Source: Desmonostoc muscorum LEGE 12446
GTDB lineage: Bacteria > Cyanobacteriota > Cyanobacteriia > Cyanobacteriales > Nostocaceae
Assembly (NCBI RefSeq): GCF_015207005.2
Contig: NZ_JADEXS020000001.1
Coordinates: 3,410,001 to 3,474,000, forward strand
Reading direction: 5' to 3'
Length of the DNA stretch: 64,000 nucleotides
Shown: positions 33,759 through 43,025 of the stretch, piece after piece
Layout: each line of letters opens with the position of its first letter
Numbering within the stretch: the stretch's first letter is position 1
The notes under the pieces: generated by a model
The model's database searches: none
What the model saw: only the letters and a program-made list of their open reading frames with translations
What the model was told of the DNA's origin: nothing
Program-made: the position numbers and the translations under genes

Positions 33759-34400
33759 TCAAAATTCTCCAGAACTTTCCAACACCCCCAACAAACTCTT
33801 CAACATCAAATAAGCAGAAGTCCCTCCCGGATCTTGATGTCCAACACTCCTCTCTCCCAAATAACTAGCCCGTCCTTTTTTCGCCTGCATTGGTATAGTT
33901 TCCTCCAACGCCCTTTGGGCAGCGGCTACAGCCTGTTGCATAGCTTTCACAGTACCGTTATTTTGTTCTACAGCCTGCTGAAAAGCTCCCACAGCCGGAG
34001 ATAGCACATCTACCATTGTCTTATCCCCTAGTTGGGCTTTACCACGTTGCAGCACGCCATCTAAACCTGCTTGCAATAGCTCTAACATGTCTTGTTCTGT
34101 TAACTCATGCTTAAGAGTTACTGCTGCACTCGCTCGTAAAAACCAAGTACCGTAGAGAGGACCACTTGCACCGCCAATAGAGGAAATCAAAGTCATACTC
34201 ACGGTTTTGAGAATGCTGCCAATGTCCTTGTCTGCAACAGTGGGTAATTGAGCGATCGCTTTTTTAAACCCACGATCCATATTTATCCCGTGGTCAGCAT
34301 CTCCAATGGCTGCATCTAATTCTGTCAAATATGCTTTATTCTGCTCTATTTCCGATGCAAATGACTGCAACCATTGTAATATCTGCGCTTGACTGACCAT
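33759..34400 (-). CDS. dhaL: Dihydroxyacetone kinase, ADP/phosphate-handling subunit DhaL
   Basis: A 213-residue all-helical DhaL with the nucleotide/Mg-binding segment LDAAIGDADHGINMDRGF, SSIGGASGPLYGTWF, GDKTMVDVLSPA and GRASYLGERSVGHQDPG. ATG 34400 (MVSQAQ) was chosen. The open frame extends 29 codons further, but that part is encoded by an ATTCGTA tandem repeat and is unlikely to be translated. It works with DhaK, the next gene upstream, to phosphorylate dihydroxyacetone. DhaM, the PTS-linked donor, is not in the window, so the phosphate source for this pair is not shown. Confidence 0.9.
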   Translation of the reverse strand: MVSQAQILQWLQSFASEIEQNKAYLTELDAAIGDADHGINMDRGFKKAIAQLPTVADKDIGSILKTVSMTLISSIGGASGPLYGTWFLRASAAVTLKHELTEQDMLELLQAGLDGVLQRGKAQLGDKTMVDVLSPAVGAFQQAVEQNNGTVKAMQQAVAAAQRALEETIPMQAKKGRASYLGERSVGHQDPGGTSAYLMLKSLLGVLESSGEF

Positions 34401-34407
34401 ATCAAAA

Positions 34408-34440
34408 TAATTCGTAATTCGTAATTCGTAATTCGTAATT
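34408..34440. repeat. ATTCGTA heptamer STRR between dhaK and dhaL
   Basis: About four tandem copies of the 7-bp unit. They fill almost the whole spacer between the two co-transcribed genes and overlap the last codons of dhaK (stop near 34439). Confidence 0.8.
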
Positions 34441-35515
34441 ATGAAATTCCCCAGCGCCAACTCGGCGTTTTTACTGGTGCATCCCATAGCCGCATCATTT
34501 CATCATCTAACTTCAGCAGGGTAATGGAACAACCTTGCATTTCCAGAGATGTAATATAAGAGCCAATGAAGTTTCGTACAATCTGCAATCCTTGTTGTTG
34601 GCAGATTTCGGCGAGTTTGCGATAAACAAGATACAGTTCCGAAACCGGAGTTCCACCCATCCCGTTGACAAAAGCTAACACGCGATCGCCTTTTACAAGT
34701 GGTGGATCAATTAGTTCCACATCCGCCCATTCTCCCTTGTTTTCATCCCACTCGCGCAATGTGCGAGTGTATGCTGTATCCTCAATGAGCGATCGCGTCA
34801 AAATTTCGGTAATCTCATCTACTGATTTTATCGTTGTGCGTTCTGTTCCTGGTTCACCGTGAATACCGATACCTAATTCAATTTGGCGATCGCCCAATTC
34901 AAATGTTGGCGTTCCTTTGGCTGGCGTTGTACAAGAGGTCAGAGCAATTCCCATACTCCGCCCATGCAAATTTACCCGCCGACACAAATTTGCTAATTGT
35001 GATAAATCATACCCTTCTTCGGCTGCTGCGCCACAAATTTTTTCCGCCAATATTGTTGTTCCGACACCCCGTCGTCCTTGGGTATACAGGCTGTCCTTGA
35101 CTGCCACATCGTCATCAATCAAAATATTTAGCGATCGGATGCCCTCAGCATGAGCTAACTCCGTTGCCATTTCAAAATTCATCACATCACCACTATAATT
35201 TTTAACGATATAAAGGATACCAGCCCCTCCGTCTACTTGCTTAGCTGCTTCTAGCATTTGGTCAGGGGTAGGTGAAGTGAAAACTTCTCCAGGACAAGCT
35301 GCATCAAGCATTCCTCGTCCCACAAAACCAGCGTGCATCGGTTCGTGGCCGCTACCCCCACCAGAAATAATTGCTACTTTACCTTGTACAGGTGCATCGG
35401 CTCGATAGACAAAAGCAGGGTCATAGTTGACTTTAATTAAATCAGAATGAGCCGCCGCCATACCCTCTAGACTTTCCCGTACAAAGTCTTCTGGCTTGTT
35501 AATCAGCTTTTTCAT
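34439..35515 (-). CDS. dhaK: Dihydroxyacetone kinase, substrate-binding subunit DhaK
   Basis: A 358-residue DhaK. Substrate-binding segments include [17 protein letters not shown] near the N-terminus, [12 protein letters not shown], and [12 protein letters not shown], whose His forms the covalent hemiaminal with dihydroxyacetone. The C-terminal end (about 14 residues after MMRLWDAPV) overlaps the STRR region. It is the first gene of a dhaK-dhaL pair. Together they phosphorylate dihydroxyacetone to the glycolytic intermediate dihydroxyacetone phosphate. Length is normal for DhaK (about 356). Confidence 0.92.
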
Positions 35516-35640: not shown

Positions 35641-36621
35641 CTACGCTGTGAGATTTGCTTCCAACCAGCTAAGTAAATCTTCAATGGCTGTAAAATCTAA
35701 TAAAGCCTCTCCAAGTGCTTCTAACTGCTCTAGAGAAAGAGTTTGAATACGCCTTTGCACCTCTTGTGGTAACTCTCCTACCCGTCTTTGTAGTTGCCGT
35801 AGCACGAGAGTTTGTCCTTGTTCTTGTTTCCCTTCCTGCTTGCCTTCTTGTTTCCCACGCTCGTAGCCAATGCGTTCGCCTGTGGTGATGTAGCTCATAG
35901 TCCGCTCCTGCTCAAACTGTTTAAACTCTTGCCAAAATTCTGCTTCCAAGGCTTTTGGTAAAATCATAACCCAATCAATAAATCGATACAGGTTACGAAT
36001 ATCTGTTTGTGGCAAGCCTAATTCATACAATCGGCGAATCAAGCTAAATTTCACAGCTTTACGTTCTTTGAGCTTTTTAGTTGTTTGCTGTGTCTGCAAA
36101 TGCGCCATTACTACAGTTGCAAATGGGTTGTCGCTGGCTTCTAATTCTTGCCAACGGTTTTGATAATCTAAAAGCTTGACGATGCCAAATTCAAAGTTCA
36201 GTCTGGTATGGGGATAACTATAACTATATTGGTTTGGTCGCCATGTTGGATCAGCATCACACAAAATCGCCAAACTTATGGCTCCTTGACCAAACTTATC
36301 AAATATTCGCAGATTGTAAGAAAACATTCTTTGGCTAAAAGCGTCTTCTGATTTGGCTTGGATTTCTACATGGATTAACAGCCAAATTTCTTGTCCTTGA
36401 AGTTGCCAAACCTTCACTAATTTATCTGCATATCGCCGACCTTGTTCTGCTTCGCGGGCGATTTGTTGAAATTCCTTATCCAGAAATTCGTGGGGACGTT
36501 GCCAATCTATTAATGCTGCTGTTTCGGGAAAGAAAAATTGCATAGCTTGGGGAAAGTAAGCTGATAAAATTTCTTTCCACGGGCTATCATTATCTGCTCT
36601 TTCTAGTTCTTCTAAACTCAT
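35641..36621 (-). CDS. PD-(D/E)XK-type transposase/nuclease-like protein with DUF4351 tail
   Basis: A 326-residue protein. The N-terminal ~200 residues contain FFPETAALIDWQRPHEFLDKEF and a predicted nuclease core ending in LLIHVEIQAK (the E-x-Q/K part of PD-(D/E)XK), as in the Rpn/PDDEXK_2 families that are very common in filamentous cyanobacteria. A run of GKQEGKQEGKQEQ (about 255-267) leads to a C-terminal leucine-rich DUF4351-like region (LRQLQRRVGELPQEVQRRI). ATG 36621 was preferred over an upstream TTG at 36636. Rpn proteins are DNA nucleases linked to recombination or defence; the role here is unknown. Confidence 0.75.
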   Translation of the reverse strand: MSLEELERADNDSPWKEILSAYFPQAMQFFFPETAALIDWQRPHEFLDKEFQQIAREAEQGRRYADKLVKVWQLQGQEIWLLIHVEIQAKSEDAFSQRMFSYNLRIFDKFGQGAISLAILCDADPTWRPNQYSYSYPHTRLNFEFGIVKLLDYQNRWQELEASDNPFATVVMAHLQTQQTTKKLKERKAVKFSLIRRLYELGLPQTDIRNLYRFIDWVMILPKALEAEFWQEFKQFEQERTMSYITTGERIGYERGKQEGKQEGKQEQGQTLVLRQLQRRVGELPQEVQRRIQTLSLEQLEALGEALLDFTAIEDLLSWLEANLTA

Positions 36622-36739
36622 ATATGGCGATCGCAATCAGCAAATACCAAAAAATCAATTATCACAACTCATACCACATGCGCGGCCTGTGTGAATTGTT
36701 TGTGAGTTTTTTGGCGATGCCTGGGTTGGGCTATGCCTA

Positions 36740-36893
36740 AGAGGTTGTTTGAAAAGTCAAAATGTATACTAAAAACCTCTCTCCTACAAGGAGAGAGGCT
36801 TTGAAACGCCCATTCCCTTGTAGGGAAGGCTTGCTCGGGGGGTTAGGTTTGGGAGGCTTATATGTTACCAAAAATACTTTTCAAGCATCCTCT
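36740..36893. repeat. 154-bp MITE, AGAGGWTGYTTGAAAAGT termini
   Basis: 18-bp inverted termini with two mismatches (36740-36757 and 36876-36893). The interior carries CCTCTCTCCT...GAGAGAGGC and CTTGCTCGGGGGGTTAGG. Half-copies lie at 31342-31360 and 50285-50305. It sits between the PDDEXK-type gene and the HMA gene. Confidence 0.65.
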
Positions 36894-36926: not shown

Positions 36927-37508
36927 TCACTCATTACTTGTTGATTGTGGTTTGCTCACACCGTGCAGTTTAATAAAACTATCAAAGGCATACCACGCCA
37001 ACACATACCAAGGAATAATTTCAAATTGCAAACCCTTAGCTAGTAACTGTCTAATAGCAAGGATGCTCAATCCTAAGGGAAAAATAACGCGCAAGTCAAT
37101 TTCGCCTTTTGTTGCTAGTTCGACTCTTTTGTTTAAGTTCACAACTGCATTTGTAATGCCCACCGCCGCTTCAGATTTACCCTCAGTAATATCGGCGAAA
37201 ATAACTCCTAAATCTGTGAGTGTGGCAACTACATTTTTCAAAGTGTCATCTTTAGCATCGTGGTTGATCACAATACTACCGTGATCAATATTAGTCCGCA
37301 CTTGATTAATGTTTGGTTGTGCTTCTAATACATCAGCAATGCGTTGCATTTCCCCGTTTTGACGATGGGGTAGAGCAACTCTCAACCGTAGCCGTCCTGG
37401 GGTATTGCTAAGAATTTTTGTGGATATTGGTTTGGATAAATTGCTTAAAGCTGCTTGCTCAATAATTTTGGGCATCTTGGTGAGATTACCATGACTATTT
37501 GTCAACAC
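36927..37508 (-). CDS. HMA_2-type domain membrane protein of the metal-ATPase cluster
   Basis: A 193-residue protein. Residues ~28-100 form a ferredoxin-like HMA_2-type domain (TPGRLRLRVALP; INQVRTNIDHGSIVIN) without the CxxC metal motif of classic HMA domains. Two hydrophobic segments follow (about 143-157 and 167-180). GTG 37508 was chosen because GGAGGG lies 7 bases upstream. It is the last gene of a co-oriented group: two-domain HMA protein, HMA relic, P-type ATPase, DUF5132 protein, this gene. The PGRxRxR motif is shared by all HMA-type members of the group. It may present substrate or regulate the ATPase (inference). Confidence 0.75.
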   Translation of the reverse strand: MLTNSHGNLTKMPKIIEQAALSNLSKPISTKILSNTPGRLRLRVALPHRQNGEMQRIADVLEAQPNINQVRTNIDHGSIVINHDAKDDTLKNVVATLTDLGVIFADITEGKSEAAVGITNAVVNLNKRVELATKGEIDLRVIFPLGLSILAIRQLLAKGLQFEIIPWYVLAWYAFDSFIKLHGVSKPQSTSNE

Positions 37509-37542
37509 ACAACTGCCCTCCGGAGTTGCATTTTAAAGAAGG

Positions 37543-37703
37543 GGGTGGGGAGTGGGGAGTGGGGAGTGGGGAGATGAGGGGGATGAGGGAGCAGGGGAGG
37601 CAGGGGAGGCAGGGGAGGCAGGGGAGGCAGGGGGAGAAATAACCCATGCCCGATGCCCGATGCCCAATGCCCCATGCCCCATGCCCTATGCCCTATGCCC
37701 AAT
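37543..37703. repeat. Mixed STRR block downstream of the DUF5132 gene
   Basis: GGGGAGT heptamers (37543-37572), GGGGAGGCA nonamers (37590-37633) and CCCATGC/CCCTATG heptamers (37645-37703) in succession. It is non-coding and lies between two genes of the HMA cluster. Confidence 0.75.
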
Positions 37704-37731
37704 TCCCCTTTTTGACTTAGTTGGTGCAGTT

Positions 37732-38037
37732 TTAGACACCATTATCTGAGGTGTTGTCAATAGGGCTGCTAGCAGCTTCAAATACTGGAGTTTGCTTGTC
37801 TTCAGCCAGTTCGGCTCTGGCTTCAGCTACAATATCTTCCCAGCTTTCACCAAGTTCTGCAAAGGCTCCTTTGCTTTTTTCGTAGGCTAAAAGTCCGCCT
37901 TTGATTACAGACTTGGCTATGGGTTTACCAATTCCAGCGACGATGGGAATCAGAACAGGAGCCAGTATAACTGCGCCAATTCCAGCTACAATTCCCACAG
38001 GGCCAGCATCTTCAATGAAATCAGTAATTTTTGGCAT
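37732..38037 (-). CDS. DUF5132 small membrane protein next to the P-type ATPase
   Basis: A 101-residue protein. A glycine-rich hydrophobic N-terminal segment (about residues 12-38, GIVAGIGAVILAPVLIPIV) is followed by a charged amphipathic helix ending DIVAEARAELAED. This is the DUF5132 architecture. It resembles, in layout and in the VAEAR segment, the mycobacterial PacL/DUF1490 proteins that scaffold and feed metal to P-type ATPases; the likeness is my own reading. GGAGG lies 11 bases before ATG 38037. It sits 72 bp after the ATPase gene in the same direction. Confidence 0.8.
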   Translation of the reverse strand: MPKITDFIEDAGPVGIVAGIGAVILAPVLIPIVAGIGKPIAKSVIKGGLLAYEKSKGAFAELGESWEDIVAEARAELAEDKQTPVFEAASSPIDNTSDNGV

Positions 38038-38109
38038 AGTTAAAATTCCTCCAGTAAATTGAAAAATTGTCGTAAAGTTTTCTAGGATACTCTACCTAGA
38101 AGAGTTGTA

Positions 38110-40407
38110 TCATCTTGCTGATGGTAGAGCTTTTTTTGGTGAAGGTTTGAGAATTGGGCGCAAACCGTTGACTCCGGCAACTACTGTTGAGCCGTTGTTG
38201 ACTACTGTGGCTGCTAAGGGGTTAAGACCAAAGAACACAGCAACAAACATTGCAGCTATGTTAGGAAAGGCAACAATACTGGTGTTTTGATGAATTATTT
38301 GCTTGGCTTTACGAGCGATCGCGATCGCTTCTAATAAACCATGCAAGTCATTTTGCATTAACACCACGTCTGCTGTTTCCCGCGCAATTTCTGAACCGTT
38401 AGCGAAGGATACAGAAACATCTGCGTAGGCTAAAGCTGGCGAGTCGTTAATTCCATCACCCACAAATGCAACTGTTTTGCCTTGTTCGTGTAGTTGGCGG
38501 ACAACTGCCGCTTTTTGTTCCGGAAAAGCTTCGGCGTGGGTATGCTTTGGCGCGATCCCCAGTTGAGCAGCCACAGCATTAGCTGTTCGCTTGTTATCTC
38601 CGGTGAGCATGTGGACTTCTACGCCATCGACTGTCAATAACTGGGTAATTACTTCCTGACTTTCGGGACGCAGAATATCGCTATAGATTATTCTACCCTG
38701 AAGTTGATTGTTACTAGCAACGTAAATCAGCGAGTCTGCTGGCTTGTGCCCATTGAGCTGTTCCATGTCTACGCCTTGCTGACGTAAAAAGCGCTCGCTA
38801 CCTACGTAAACAGTCTCGCCGTCAATGTCGGCTTGGACGCCTAAACCCAATTGATAGTCCCATTTACTCCGGCTGGGTATCACTACTTGTTGTGCTTCGG
38901 CATAGCGAATCACTGCTTCGGCTACGGGGTGTGTCAGGCGCTGTTCAGCCGCCGCGGCTAGTTCCAACACTCGCAAATCTGATGTTGCAGGATTGAGACT
39001 CTCAACTCCAACAACTGAAACTTCTCCTTTTGTGAGAGTGCCGGTCTTATCAAACACAAGTGTATCAACTGCTGCTAGTTGTTCTAATGCCCGACCACTA
39101 CGAATGAGGATGCCGTGCTTGGCTGCATAAGTCAGTGCTGCCAAAACTGTTGTTGGAATTGATACCCTAATTCCTGTGCATAAGTCCAGGGTGAGGACAC
39201 TGGCTACTCGTGCTGGGTTACGAGTTGCGGCAAATACTGCCCCACCCAGTAACAAAGTTGGCACAACTGCTTTTTCGGCAATTTTGATGGCATAGTTTTC
39301 CATGCGGGTATCGTGGACGGGTGCTTCTTGCATTAACTTGATGCTTTGTCCAGCACGGGTGTCGTTACCTGTCCATTCCGCCAAGATATAAATTCGTCCT
39401 TCGCGCATCAAGGTTGAAGCAAAAACTGGCTGTCCTTTTCTTTTCAAGACCGGCATGGATTCGCCGGTGAGTTTTTGCTCGTCTAGCAAGGCTTTACCCC
39501 GGAGGATAGTACCATCGACTGGAACCTGTTCGCCAGGATAGACAATGACTGTATCCCCACGTTGTACATCCTGAATGGGGATTTGTTCTTTGATCCCATT
39601 GCGTTCAACCCAGACGAATTGTCCTAAGGAACTAAGTAAATCTAGAGTTTGCAATTTGGAAGAACGAGCAGTACGATCGCGGATGTTTTCACCAATTTCA
39701 ATTAAGCTCAACATCAATGATGGCGTGAGAAATTGACCTTGGACGGTAGTAATAGCGATCGCTAGAAAATCCAAAAAGTCAATGTTCAGTTTGCGTTGCT
39801 TTGTGATCCCTTCTACTGCTCTTTGGAATACCGGTAACGTCGCTAGGGCAATGGTTCCCGCCACTATTAAAGGTGGGATCGGTAGTCCCAACGGTCCTCC
39901 TAACACAGCTAAACCAGTAGCCATGGCCGAAAGTTGCATTCCAGGCCAGGAATTCTCTGCATCGTCTGTTGGTTGGGAAGCCAATGAATTGTTCGCTTTT
40001 GGTAAAATTATTCCGACTTCATTGGCCGCCACAATCAGATAACTCAAACGCGATCGCACCTTCGCATCTGCAACTGAACTAGACTTATAATTCACCACTA
40101 ACGCCGCCGCCGCCGGTTTGATTCGGACATTAGTAACGAGGGGATCGGCTTCGAGTAAAGCTATAAGACGTTGAGCATAATCGGCATCGTAACGTAATCG
40201 AGGCACGCGCAACCGTATCCTTCCGCGAATTGCATGAACAACACTGTAGGAAACTTGAGCAGTATGTGTGCGAGAATGTCCATTTCTCTCAGCCAGAGAA
40301 ACTTTGCCATTCTTTTGCACTAAAGGAATTACCTGACTCTGTTTTTCTACAATGTCGTGAGATGTTTCAACTCGAAGGGATGGTGGTTGAACTGTGACTT
40401 GTGCCAT
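38110..40407 (-). CDS. P1B-like heavy-metal-translocating P-type ATPase with altered CPx motif
   Basis: A 765-residue P-type ATPase. Residues ~50-125 are an HMA_2-type domain (RGRIRLRVPRL, no CxxC). Later landmarks are LTGES in the actuator domain, the phosphorylated Asp453 in DKTGTLT, LTGDNKRTANAVA, and GDGINDSPALAYADV in the nucleotide and hinge parts. In the metal-binding membrane helix, where Cu/Zn/Cd pumps have CPC, the sequence is LDLCTGIRVSIP, giving Leu-Cys410-Thr in place of Cys-Pro-Cys. The following KHGILIRSGRALEQL is canonical. The transported ion is therefore not predictable by rule; it may be a different metal. The flanking HMA_2 and DUF5132 genes are probable partners. Confidence 0.9.
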   Translation of the reverse strand: MAQVTVQPPSLRVETSHDIVEKQSQVIPLVQKNGKVSLAERNGHSRTHTAQVSYSVVHAIRGRIRLRVPRLRYDADYAQRLIALLEADPLVTNVRIKPAAAALVVNYKSSSVADAKVRSRLSYLIVAANEVGIILPKANNSLASQPTDDAENSWPGMQLSAMATGLAVLGGPLGLPIPPLIVAGTIALATLPVFQRAVEGITKQRKLNIDFLDFLAIAITTVQGQFLTPSLMLSLIEIGENIRDRTARSSKLQTLDLLSSLGQFVWVERNGIKEQIPIQDVQRGDTVIVYPGEQVPVDGTILRGKALLDEQKLTGESMPVLKRKGQPVFASTLMREGRIYILAEWTGNDTRAGQSIKLMQEAPVHDTRMENYAIKIAEKAVVPTLLLGGAVFAATRNPARVASVLTLDLCTGIRVSIPTTVLAALTYAAKHGILIRSGRALEQLAAVDTLVFDKTGTLTKGEVSVVGVESLNPATSDLRVLELAAAAEQRLTHPVAEAVIRYAEAQQVVIPSRSKWDYQLGLGVQADIDGETVYVGSERFLRQQGVDMEQLNGHKPADSLIYVASNNQLQGRIIYSDILRPESQEVITQLLTVDGVEVHMLTGDNKRTANAVAAQLGIAPKHTHAEAFPEQKAAVVRQLHEQGKTVAFVGDGINDSPALAYADVSVSFANGSEIARETADVVLMQNDLHGLLEAIAIARKAKQIIHQNTSIVAFPNIAAMFVAVFFGLNPLAATVVNNGSTVVAGVNGLRPILKPSPKKALPSAR

Positions 40408-40440
40408 TCGTTATATCTCGTATAGGTTTACAAAGTTGGT

Positions 40441-40597
40441 TGTTGAGGGGAGTGGGGAGTGGGGAATGGGGAATGGGAGATGACGGGGATGAGGGGGATG
40501 AGGGAGATGAGGGAGATGAGGGAGAATAATAACTCCCCAGTCCCCAGTCCCAATGCCCAGTCCCCAGTCCCCACTCCCTACTCCCCACTCCCCACCT
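40441..40597. repeat. STRR block between the ATPase gene and the HMA relic
   Basis: GGGGAGT/GGGGAAT heptamers (40447-40477), GATGAGGGA nonamers (40480-40525) and CCCCAGT heptamers (40535-40592). Non-coding. Confidence 0.75.
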
Positions 40598-40917
40598 TCA
40601 CCAGTCATTTTTGCGCTGACGGAGTAATAGAGATTTGCTGATGTCTAAAATTTTGCTAAAGGCGATCGCACTTGCAATATCTGCCGTTACATCCCTGGCA
40701 GATTGAATTACGCTAGCTATATTGCGATCTTGCCGCTTCAAAGACGTTTTATTTGCAGCAACTCCAACAGACGTTGCTGATATTGTGAATTTTCATTGAT
40801 CCCAGGCAGACATAATCCGACTTGACTCTTAAGTTTATGGGTAATGCTATGAACTACCCTTAGAGATTTTCTGTAAGTGCCAGTGCTTGAATCTAGTTGT
40901 AAGCTAGAACCCTCCAT
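40598..40917 (-). pseudogene. Small HMA_2-like gene, apparently frameshifted
   Basis: ATG 40917 has a strong GGAGGA ribosome site 5 bases upstream and opens a 59-codon frame (stop 40738-40740) with LRVVHSITHKLK...VGLCLPGI, a degenerate version of the VVHAIPGRIRFHLPRL motif of its neighbours. After that stop the next frame continues with protein-like sequence (LKRQDRNIASVIQSARDVTA to LRQRKNDW) down to a TGA at 40598. The most economical reading is one ~106-residue gene with a frameshift near 40760. Alternatively the 59-residue product is made as such. Confidence 0.45.
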
Positions 40918-40948
40918 TGTTGTCCTCCAGTGTTCCGTGTGGAACCGT

Positions 40949-42136
40949 CTATAACGGAAAGTTCGCCATCATGGCTAAGGAATAAGACAAAGTTGCAGGC
41001 TTCAAATCAGCCCATAAACTTGATAAGTCTAGAGTTGTGTTCTCTACTTCTGTTGTCTGACTCACTTCTAGAGTTGTGTCTTCCAACACATTTGTGTTGT
41101 CTGATTGTGCCGTATGACTCACTTCTAGAGTTGTGTCTTCCAATACAGTTGTAGTGTCTACTTCTTCTAGAGATGTTTGTGGTTCTAGAACTGTGATGGG
41201 ATCGCTTGGTGGATTAGTTTGCAAAGCCAATTCCATTAGATTTACCCAATGGTTGACACTAGTCTGACTAGACTTATAAGCGATCGCAATTGAGGCTGCA
41301 CCACTATTCACACGCACACTGATCGTTTGGGGATCGTTTTTGATCAACTTCTCTAGCCGCCGTGTATATGCACGATCCTCGGCTAGTCGAGGTAGATGAA
41401 ATCGGATACGTCCTGGAATTGCATGGACTACACTGTATGTTAAATTCTTACCCTTCAAATCTTGCACCTCTTGGTTCTGGCTACAAGAATTTGCTTGATT
41501 TGTGCCTTCGCCCTTTAACTCTTGCAAGTTTTCCGATCCCGAAGCTTCTGGCTCAAAACAATCAATTACCCAACGAGTTGCATCTGCGGTAATCATATAC
41601 AGTGGAATCGCTGCCAAACCGCTGATCCCCAGTCCACCTGTGACTGCTAACCCTGTCATCAAAGGAATCAAGGAAATAGACTGTTCTTTCCAAAAATCAA
41701 GGGATTTCCATGCAGCAAAGGGATCTGTCTGACTGTTTGAAGTCGGCGAAACTTGAGCTTGGTGAATATTAAATTGTTGCAGTAGTCCCAACACTTGCGG
41801 TAGTGACAGCTTTTTTTGATCAAAACTGACAACTATACTGCTTGTTTGCTCATTGGCAGCAACTTCCTTCACCCCATACTGCTGTCGTAAGCCTTGGGAT
41901 ATATTTTTGATTCTTGATTTGGAAATACCCTCACTAGCGCGGATTCTTACCCGCCCAGTAGTCGCATGAACAATTTCCAATCTCTCTGAAGATAGTTGCG
42001 CTTGTAACTGTGCAGCTACACCGCTTTTACTGGTATTTAGTTTTGCTTCATCACTTTGATGCTGAGCGGAGGTTGAGTCACTAGACATACTCATCTGCGG
42101 ACTTAACCTCTCGTGACTACTAATAATATTGGTCAT
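40949..42136 (-). CDS. Two-domain HMA_2-type membrane protein of the metal-ATPase cluster
   Basis: A 395-residue protein with an HMA_2-type domain at ~50-120 (ATTGRVRIRASEG), a hydrophobic hairpin at ~155-190 (IPLMTGLAVTGGLGISGLAAIPLYM), and a second HMA_2-type domain at ~232-305 (VVHAIPGRIRFHLPRL; VNSGAASIAIAYKS). The C-terminal region has imperfect repeats of LEDTTLEVSxT (about 325-370), also visible in DNA at 41040-41150. The membrane segment resembles the first segment of the ATPase encoded downstream, so this protein looks derived from the N-terminal part of such a pump. Neither HMA domain has CxxC. It is the first gene of the cluster. Confidence 0.75.
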   Translation of the reverse strand: MTNIISSHERLSPQMSMSSDSTSAQHQSDEAKLNTSKSGVAAQLQAQLSSERLEIVHATTGRVRIRASEGISKSRIKNISQGLRQQYGVKEVAANEQTSSIVVSFDQKKLSLPQVLGLLQQFNIHQAQVSPTSNSQTDPFAAWKSLDFWKEQSISLIPLMTGLAVTGGLGISGLAAIPLYMITADATRWVIDCFEPEASGSENLQELKGEGTNQANSCSQNQEVQDLKGKNLTYSVVHAIPGRIRFHLPRLAEDRAYTRRLEKLIKNDPQTISVRVNSGAASIAIAYKSSQTSVNHWVNLMELALQTNPPSDPITVLEPQTSLEEVDTTTVLEDTTLEVSHTAQSDNTNVLEDTTLEVSQTTEVENTTLDLSSLWADLKPATLSYSLAMMANFPL

Positions 42137-42229
42137 TTACCCGATAACTAAGCCGAACCAAAGGTTAACGTTAGGTTAAGTATAACTTAAACTTTCCGTA
42201 AACTATACATTTTAAATAATTATTTCGGA

Positions 42230-42757: not shown

Positions 42758-42774
42758 GAGAAAAACTCCTTTGG

Positions 42775-43025
42775 GAATGGGGAATGGGGAGTGGGGAGTG
42801 GGGACTGGGGACTGGGGACTGGGGACTGGGGACTGGGGACTGGGGACTGGGGACTGGGGACTGGGCATTGGGAATGGGGACTGGGCATTGGGAATGGGGA
42901 GTGGGGACTGGGCATTGGGACTGGGGACTGGGGAGTTATTATTCTCCCTCATCTCCCTCATCTCCCTCATCCCCCTCATCCCCCTCATCCCCCTCATCTC
43001 CCCATTCCCCACTCCCCATTCCCAA
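42775..43025. repeat. Long STRR array, about ten tandem GGGGACT heptamers plus variants
   Basis: A near-perfect run of GGGGACT units at about 42800-42866, then GGGCATT/GGGAATG variants to 42935, then CTCATCTCC/CTCATCCCC nonamers at 42945-43000. This is the largest STRR block of the window. It fills the spacer between the HtrA gene and def. Confidence 0.85.

Follow-up and report, generated by a model that had tools for sequence, protein, structure and literature searches.

On the minus strand of a 64,000-nt stretch of the Desmonostoc muscorum LEGE 12446 genome (hereafter the window), five loci from 42136 to 36927 share one orientation and have no unrelated genes between them (Table 1). They comprise genes for a two-domain HMA_2 protein, a decayed HMA_2 protein, a P1B-fold ATPase, a DUF5132 protein and a one-domain HMA_2 protein, a layout first described in an earlier note on this DNA, whose coordinates, shared orientation and gene order are borne out here. 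On balance, we favour the interpretation that these loci form a pump module for a divalent metal, probably Fe2+, in which the DUF5132 protein is a PacL-type scaffold and the small HMA_2 proteins are satellites of the pump. This interpretation is based on gene content, conservation, co-occurrence, a gene fusion, phylogeny, the linkage of relatives of the pump with FeoB and purifying selection. Its assembly part is firm; the scaffold function, docking, the direction of transport, iron as the ion and the mechanism of the satellites are what we infer from these data. Genomes are denoted below by G codes (G000 for that of the window) and loci by L codes.

We surveyed 146 cyanobacterial genomes with Pfam models, with an E-value threshold below 1e-95 for the ATPase. 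DUF5132 was found in 25 of them, and HMA_2 in exactly those 25 (in 24 above its cut-off). As the HMA_2 matches include the N-termini of the pumps themselves, the independent pair consists of DUF5132 and the ATPase. The latter was found in 20 genomes, all within the DUF5132 set, and in none of the 121 others (Fisher test, 2.6e-20). The DUF5132 and ATPase genes are no more than 6 kb apart in 18 of these 20 genomes (all but G085 and G089), and 17 of the 18 linked loci also encode a separate HMA_2 protein, the exception, L099, being a contig of 3.6 kb. The co-occurrence check proposed in the earlier note thus reveals linkage beyond chance. In the family of the window, the usual order is the two-domain HMA_2 gene, sometimes a third HMA_2 gene, then the ATPase, DUF5132 and one-domain HMA_2 genes, with the two-domain gene located elsewhere in G042. 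More distant cyanobacteria have a shorter protein, with a hydrophobic stretch and one HMA_2 domain, alongside the ATPase and DUF5132. No DUF5132, HMA_2 or ATPase was found in G068 and G125, two genomes of the same genus. The closest named proteins belong to Nostoc and Desmonostoc, and related DUF5132 and ATPase proteins were also found in the laboratory strain Trichormus (Anabaena) variabilis ATCC 29413.

The ATPase is of the heavy-metal type (TIGR01525, 513 bits for a cut-off of 346), and its N-terminus matches HMA_2 at 30.0 bits, exactly the Pfam cut-off. In the alignment to CopA, transmembrane segment 4 (TM4) reads LTLDLCTGIRVSIPT where CPC stands in CopA, and the C-terminal motif is VVNNGST. 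Throughout the family, D-[FL]-x-T-G-[IV]-R replaces CPC in TM4. The columns that are invariant in 46 sequences, SCA-type relatives included, comprise among others R63 and R65 of the HMA_2 motif, D408 in TM4, and N708, N716 and N738 in the C-terminal helices. A Cys-based metal site in the pump is unlikely, since the window ATPase has a single Cys, C410 in TM4, and 12 of 119 relatives longer than 700 aa are Cys-free. The best structural matches of an AlphaFold2 model of the ATPase (predicted local distance difference test, pLDDT, 75) are CopA, ZntA and ATP7B. An HN pair in TM6 is given as a P1B6 feature in PMC9374683; the window ATPase has NN at this place, with CTG in TM4, and HN is present in FeoB-linked relatives, e.g. 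L103, L086 and L078.

A contig scan across genomes yielded at least 80 loci and at least 83 ATPases by our own ORF (open reading frame) calling. Among the matches listed, 24 of 83 ATPases have an Asp at the TM4 position of the CPC region and are called D-type here; 20 of these have an HMA_2-like N-terminus. A DUF5132- or DUF1490-like gene lies within 700 bp of 11 of the 24 D-type ATPases and of 3 of the 59 others, again among the matches listed (Fisher test, 3e-5), a tally from which L122 was left out because its DUF1490 gene overlaps the ATPase gene. In a tree of 62 ATPases computed by a quick method with SH-aLRT (Shimodaira-Hasegawa-like approximate likelihood ratio test) support and no bootstrap, the 18 cyanobacterial ATPases form one clade. 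Together with Deinococcus and Chloroflexi ATPases, they are sister (SH-aLRT 96) to 20 of the 21 SCA-type rows, which we infer to be P1B6 ATPases because of their DUF6110 partners; the remaining SCA-type row, L133 of Bacteroidales, branches outside (94). The HMA_2-type and CtpC-like ATPases are separated from 15 other P1B ATPases (99).

The DUF5132 protein, whose gene lies 72 bp from that of the ATPase, is composed of a single extended hydrophobic segment (approximately residues 11-42) and a charged Ala- and Glu-rich tail, with neither Cys nor His. In Pfam it matches DUF5132 only, not DUF1490. We built a hidden Markov model (HMM) from seven Pfam-confirmed DUF6110 proteins and ran it on 1652 ORFs of cyanobacterial loci that had been picked for DUF5132 or HMA_2. 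The 30 ORFs detected at E below 1 (7e-5 to 0.45) are all DUF5132 ORFs, including that of the window (9e-4). Some proteins bridge the families, with several of the matches under Pfam cut-offs: the L088 protein matches DUF5132 and DUF1490 (6e-5; 23.4 bits, cut-off 28.4), that of L127 DUF1490 (1.6e-5) and DUF5132 (0.005), that of L135 DUF6110 and DUF1490, and that of L184 DUF6110 and DUF5132 (0.035). Over its curated cut-off, DUF1490 was found in none of the 146 genomes, with one match below 1e-3, at the place of L088. Profile-profile scores were 28.3 for DUF5132-DUF6110, 33.6 for DUF1490-DUF6110 (probability 73%) and 25.8 for DUF5132-DUF1490, and the best of 99 column shuffles reached 15.1, 16.5 and 20.8, respectively. 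An iterated HMM of the DUF6110 set, which had also taken in DUF5132 and DUF1490 members, gave 24 matches, 21 at D-type and 3 at CtpC-like ATPase loci, and none at the D-type loci L128, L131 and L133; we do not count this as independent evidence because the model was built from those same loci. A kinship of DUF5132 with DUF1490 and DUF6110 is probable. As the DUF6110 HMM finds DUF5132 proteins and one DUF5132 protein matches DUF1490, DUF5132 is probably a PacL-type scaffold. DUF1490 proteins are described as the PacL proteins of mycobacteria, which keep P-ATPases stable and bring them into clusters (PMC9374683, PMC13043812), and DUF6110 proteins as PacL-like (PMC13043812) and paired with P1B6 ATPases (PMC9374683). 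In the literature searched, there was no match for the name DUF5132 or for an HMA_2 domain with a P-type ATPase, and the terms DUF6110, effluxosome and 'HMA2 domain-containing' retrieved only the two PacL papers; no other paper listed could be tied to the module.

Other small genes deserve mention. DUF5132 genes with no HMA_2 or ATPase match in the 18 kb read are present at L081, L088 (G024) and L083 (G019), and the lone gene of L088 is the closest to DUF1490. A second family of small, weakly DUF5132-like proteins is encoded near the ATPase (L068:10059-10280, L078:13218-13496, L087:12074-12448 and L089:9501-9833). They are short, with one hydrophobic stretch and an N-terminal IHxxKSV-like stretch; a Pfam scan of one of them, L078:13218, gave no match.

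Cyanobacteria combine a high iron demand with high iron toxicity. Pfam analyses of the neighbours of the cyanobacterial modules assigned 6 of 93 ORFs to FeoB and 2 to FeoA (best 25 of 118 families), and ten further neighbour scans yielded one ferritin and one DUF2202 protein. A FeoB_C search of the 25 genomes located 25 places, of which 23 belong to genomes that encode this ATPase. At 11 of these 23, an ATPase of this kind is encoded no more than 8 kb from FeoB, for 0.14 expected under random placement (Poisson 6e-18, a value that overstates the case because the 11 FeoB genomes fall in seven genera). In G078, genes for FeoB, a two-domain HMA_2 protein, the ATPase, DUF5132, an HMA_2 protein and DAK1 follow one another on one strand, and FeoB ends about 210 bp ahead of the module, which is of the window type (NN). 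In other phyla, the 87 neighbour ORFs of D-type ATPases include three FeoB_N, two FeoB_C and two iron-dependent repressors among the matches listed, and at L120 a FeoB-like ORF, a DUF6110 gene and the ATPase gene are consecutive. The neighbours of other P1B ATPases, also among the matches listed, include Cys-type HMA proteins (11 of 88), cupredoxins (3) and CsoR-type repressors (3), and the best 25 of 113 families contain none related to iron. Thus, with relatives of the cluster so often beside iron-uptake genes, the cluster probably handles ferrous iron.

Turning to the satellites, the one-domain protein matches HMA_2 at 47 bits, with positions 10-150 of the 154 of the PF19991 model covered. 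Two-domain homologues are present in G019, G024, G042, G078, G101 and Tolypothrix. Over 62 aa, the second HMA_2 domain of the two-domain protein shares 47% identity with the N-terminal domain of the pump. This and the occurrence of a dead pump as a satellite in a relative agree with its earlier description as a duplicated pump N-terminus without the pump. The latter case is that of Gloeothece PCC 7822, whose satellite of 522 aa is predicted to be a dead pump because three blocks align to the pump and DKTG is missing. It is annotated as an HMA2 domain-containing protein on a plasmid of Gloeothece verrucosa PCC 7822 (L111:11825-13393), downstream of the active pump and DUF5132. Separate HMA_2 ORFs were also found in D-type loci of Chloroflexi (L119), Hahella (L123), Bacteroidales (L133) and a deltaproteobacterium (L135), among the matches listed. 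The earlier note had remarked that the HMA domains lack CxxC and carry a GR-R motif, and this extends to the sampled loci: among 69 HMA_2 domains, none has CxxC, 66 have GRxR and 51 HxxxGRxR. The one-domain protein has no Cys, and the two Cys residues of the two-domain protein are outside the HMA_2 stretches. We considered and rejected a classical Cu/Zn-sensing role for the HMA_2 domains because CxxC is missing. Foldseek returned no match at E below 0.001 for the two-domain model. Elsewhere in the genome, near C1:5326645 (L005:1420-2406), a 328-aa protein has an HMA_2 N-terminus followed by what looks by eye like a PAP2-type phosphatase.

We compared nonsynonymous (dN) and synonymous (dS) divergence, many dS values being close to saturation. 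For the two-domain protein, dN was 0.15-0.42 and dS 0.44-1.8 (seven pairs; 0.33-0.42 and 1.2-1.8 in the four pairs with the window). For the one-domain protein, the values were 0.11-0.27 and 0.45-1.6 (seven pairs). The satellites are thus genes under purifying selection, not debris. DUF5132 and the ATPase are more tightly constrained than the satellites (dN 0.055-0.17, dS 0.3-2.7), with dN 0.10-0.17 and dS 0.6-2.7 for DUF5132 in the four pairs with the window. The third HMA_2 gene, lost in the window, is under the weakest constraint (dN 0.37, dS 0.79, one pair).

In our working model, the ATPase would export a divalent metal, most likely Fe2+, from the cytoplasm along a transport path with D-x-x-T-G-x-R in place of Cys-Pro-Cys. 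The membrane helix of DUF5132, as a scaffold of the PacL/DUF6110 type, would gather DUF5132 copies and pumps, and its charged Ala- and Glu-rich tail may stabilise the pump. The HMA_2 satellites would be membrane-anchored copies of the N-terminal domain of the pump that dock on the pump or on the scaffold as adaptors. Once docked, they may regulate or hold the pump rather than serve as Cys-type metal carriers.

Several observations weigh against this model. The profile-profile probabilities are low for DUF5132-DUF6110 (37%) and DUF5132-DUF1490 (21%), PacL1 has a C-terminal metal-binding motif that DUF5132 lacks, and the structure model of the two-domain protein has a mean pLDDT of 52. Related genomes are not independent, neither the 25 positive ones, which nonetheless span many family codes, nor the FeoB cases, which span seven genera. 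An SPC-type ATPase (L137) likewise has a FeoB-like ORF as its neighbour, no iron gene was recognised beside the module of the window, and the FeoB search found none in its genome or in G101, G022, G030 and G074. Furthermore, the ATPase copies nearest to FeoB have HN and VTG in 10 of 11 cases, the eleventh (G078) having NN, whereas the window copy has NN and CTG, so that specificity may have shifted. Given the FeoB linkage on one side, and the absence of FeoB from its own genome and the NN of TM6 on the other, iron is likely for the ATPase family and only probable for the window copy. These last points also favour an efflux platform of the PacL type whose ion is some other divalent metal, such as Zn2+, Cd2+ or Mn2+, rather than iron, the FeoB link being restricted to paralogous copies. 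The CtpC-like relatives L114, L122 and L148 pair with DUF1490, and CtpC with PacL1 is credited with zinc resistance in M. tuberculosis (PMC9374683). Nevertheless, FeoB directly precedes the NN-type module of G078, the D-type neighbours in other phyla listed above include FeoB and iron-dependent repressors, and copper- or thiol-type families surround the other P1B ATPases (best 25 of 113 families). We regard a non-iron platform as rather doubtful. A ferrosome-type system, in which the pump would load Fe2+ into membrane-bound stores that DUF5132 and the HMA_2 proteins help form, appears unlikely. The FeoB linkage would fit it, and the cyanobacterial ATPase clade is sister to the one that holds the Arcobacter and Sulfurospirillum ATPases. 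We take FezA to be a DUF6110 protein and FezB a P1B6 ATPase. The Arcobacter locus (L115) has a DUF4405-like gene (6.8e-4), small one-helix genes (by eye) and an SCA-type ATPase; that of Sulfurospirillum (L129) resembles it, including a look-alike of the DUF4405-like gene (by eye), and codes for a 90-aa protein that matches the DUF6110 HMM at 0.0023. FezC is described as DUF4405-like and FezB as a putative ferrous iron transporter (PMC10979944), and FezA and FezB as required for ferrosomes in C. difficile (PMC12574912). The pump of the window is thus perhaps a cousin of ferrosome-type pumps. However, no DUF4405 or FezC-like gene was found among the best 25 of 118 families for the 93 neighbour ORFs of the cyanobacterial modules. 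A profile comparison of the small L115 gene was negative, and no title or abstract in the literature searched brings ferrosomes and cyanobacteria together.

Regarding the number of pumps, we tentatively entertain the possibility that DUF5132 and HMA_2 make up a general P-type ATPase platform, common to the P1B pump and to an HMA_2-bearing P2-type pump. The genome of the window codes for such a P2-type ATPase (best NCBIfam match PMR1-type, under the cut-off of that model), beside which is a 175-aa fusion of DUF5132 with the C-terminal region of the one-domain HMA_2 protein. Relative to the window proteins, identity is 43% over 82 aa in the DUF5132 part and 49% over 79 aa (E 3e-24) in the HMA_2 part, and the same fusion occurs at the P2 locus of G005. 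In each of the five DUF5132 genomes that lack the P1B ATPase there is an HMA_2-bearing frame of 970-1013 aa, which is P2-type in G005 and G143 according to NCBIfam, as in G000, and in G022 by its PEGLP motif; in G030 and G074, however, the class is judged from frame length. These fusions, and the separate HMA_2 and DUF5132 sets of genomes that lack the P1B ATPase, suggest that DUF5132 contacts the C-terminal part of HMA_2 and perhaps provides one platform for several pumps. Nevertheless, the P2 pump of the window's genome has its own fusion partner, and sharing in trans is only presumed. The earlier note had read the set as a dedicated transport or sensing assembly with one pump. Its dedicated assembly is supported by co-occurrence, linkage, the DUF5132-HMA_2 fusion and purifying selection on the satellites. 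The single pump is not supported, as the separate HMA_2 and DUF5132 sets of G022, G030 and G074 are kept in genomes where no such ATPase was found at E below 1e-95, and we found nothing in support of sensing; the kinship with PacL and DUF6110 and the link to iron had gone unrecognised. Lastly, we consider it very unlikely that the satellites are decaying pump fragments devoid of function. In favour of this reading, the window carries one satellite gene as a pseudogene, constraint is weakest on the third HMA gene, and a dead pump serves as a satellite in a relative. Nevertheless, both intact satellites have dN below dS in every pair (0.11-0.42 and 0.44-1.8, the larger dS values near saturation), and a separate HMA_2 protein is encoded at almost all linked cyanobacterial loci and in the four D-type loci of other phyla named above.

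The decayed gene is a genuine relic. Its recognisable part is 41% identical (tblastn, E 3e-9) to residues 1-59 of an intact 224-aa protein with two HMA_2 domains, whose gene occupies the place of the relic in the module of G019, and stops and a frame change follow, in agreement with the frameshifted HMA relic of the earlier note. An intact copy of 175 aa is also present in G024. As full-length homologues were found in only these two genomes among 40 loci searched, the relic is outside the core of the module. The absence of unrelated genes from the module thus stands, with the qualifications that the relic is not a core part and that the gaps ahead of the ATPase and one-domain genes consist largely of short tandem repeats. 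Similar repeats at 42773-43023 fill the 5' part of the adjoining peptide deformylase ORF, and the true start of that gene is probably further inside the ORF. Comparison by eye of eight upstream regions revealed TTAACC-N5-TTAACC units at a similar distance from the start codon in five of them (the window, G101, G019, G024 and G042, the latter with one base different). A dyad, TTAAGT-TAT-ACTTAA, overlaps this repeat (42163-42190) in the window only, among the eight regions. The terminator-like hairpin downstream of the last gene is the sole minus-strand site of its kind outside coding sequence; the call is weak, because the scan found 10 sites for 5.9 (standard deviation 2.8) in shuffles. A promoter scan was uninformative (9 found, 8.3 expected). 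Between the module and apparent dihydroxyacetone kinase genes (33759-35515, by eye), a DUF4351 protein (Pfam, 88 bits) is encoded at 35641-36636; DAK1 is downstream of the module in G078 as well.

Table 1. Features of the module and of the second pump locus; positions refer to the window unless a genome contig is given.
Feature	Position	Strand	Basis
Two-domain HMA_2 satellite, 395 aa: HMA_2, hydrophobic stretch (152-187), HMA_2	40949..42136	-	Pfam HMA_2, 58 bits
Decayed HMA_2 gene (recognisable part 40917-40753 only)	40600..40917	-	tblastn
P1B-fold ATPase, 765 aa, HMA_2 N-terminus	38110..40407	-	TIGR01525, Pfam and tree
DUF5132 protein, 101 aa	37732..38037	-	PF17195, 63 bits
One-domain HMA_2 satellite, 193 aa, semi-hydrophobic C-terminal part	36927..37508	-	PF19991
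Short tandem repeats, 7- and 9-base units	37541-37708, 40447-40594, 42773-43023		
Direct repeat TTAACC-N5-TTAACC ahead of the two-domain gene, candidate promoter or operator	42163..42179	-	
Terminator-like hairpin and T run downstream of the last gene	36779..36797	-	Consensus scan
P2-type ATPase, 1005 aa, HMA_2 N-terminus	G000:C1:4751016-4754618 (L092:5517-9119)		

With the proposed module, DUF5132 and the HMA_2 satellites gain a probable identity, and the P1B6/DUF6110 pairs, the iron neighbourhood and the efflux platform of mycobacteria are joined as one testable type of system. If correct, platform-type metal pumping would extend to cyanobacteria, and the role of Cys-free HMA-like domains would become a direct question. 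More speculatively, and with little expectation that it holds in full, some cyanobacteria might have ferrosome-like or foci-forming iron platforms that bring together the P1B pump lacking Cys-Pro-Cys, the HMA_2-bearing P2 pump, the PacL-type DUF5132 scaffold and an enlarged set of HMA_2 decoys, with DUF5132, DUF6110 and DUF1490 as one scaffold superfamily of several phyla.

Among known systems, the model of the two-domain satellite weakly matches HMA domains (MerP, for instance, with TMt 0.68), among other folds. The classical HMA domains (PF00403) of metallochaperones and of the metal-binding regions of CopA and ZntA have a CxxC metal site, in contrast with the GRxR-bearing, CxxC-free domains found here. 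The module resembles the ferrosome (fez) clusters in its sister ATPase clade and iron neighbourhood; in contrast, no FezC-like cytochrome was found among the best 25 of 118 neighbour families. In the DUF6110-P1B6 pairs, the partner and DUF5132 are matched by one HMM and the ATPase likewise has an Asp before the CPC position. Nevertheless, TM4 is mostly SCA in those pairs and A/V/C/G/M-T-G in the cyanobacterial set, and only some of their loci have the HMA_2 satellites that accompany the cyanobacterial pumps. The effluxosomes of PacL with CtpC, CtpG or CtpV differ in having no HMA_2 satellites, and mycobacterial CtpC has CPC in TM4, which the cyanobacterial pump lacks. In both, however, a small one-helix protein with an Ala- and Glu-rich tail is encoded beside a P-type ATPase, and the CtpC-like and cyanobacterial ATPases are on the same side of the tree, with N-termini of the GRxR type.

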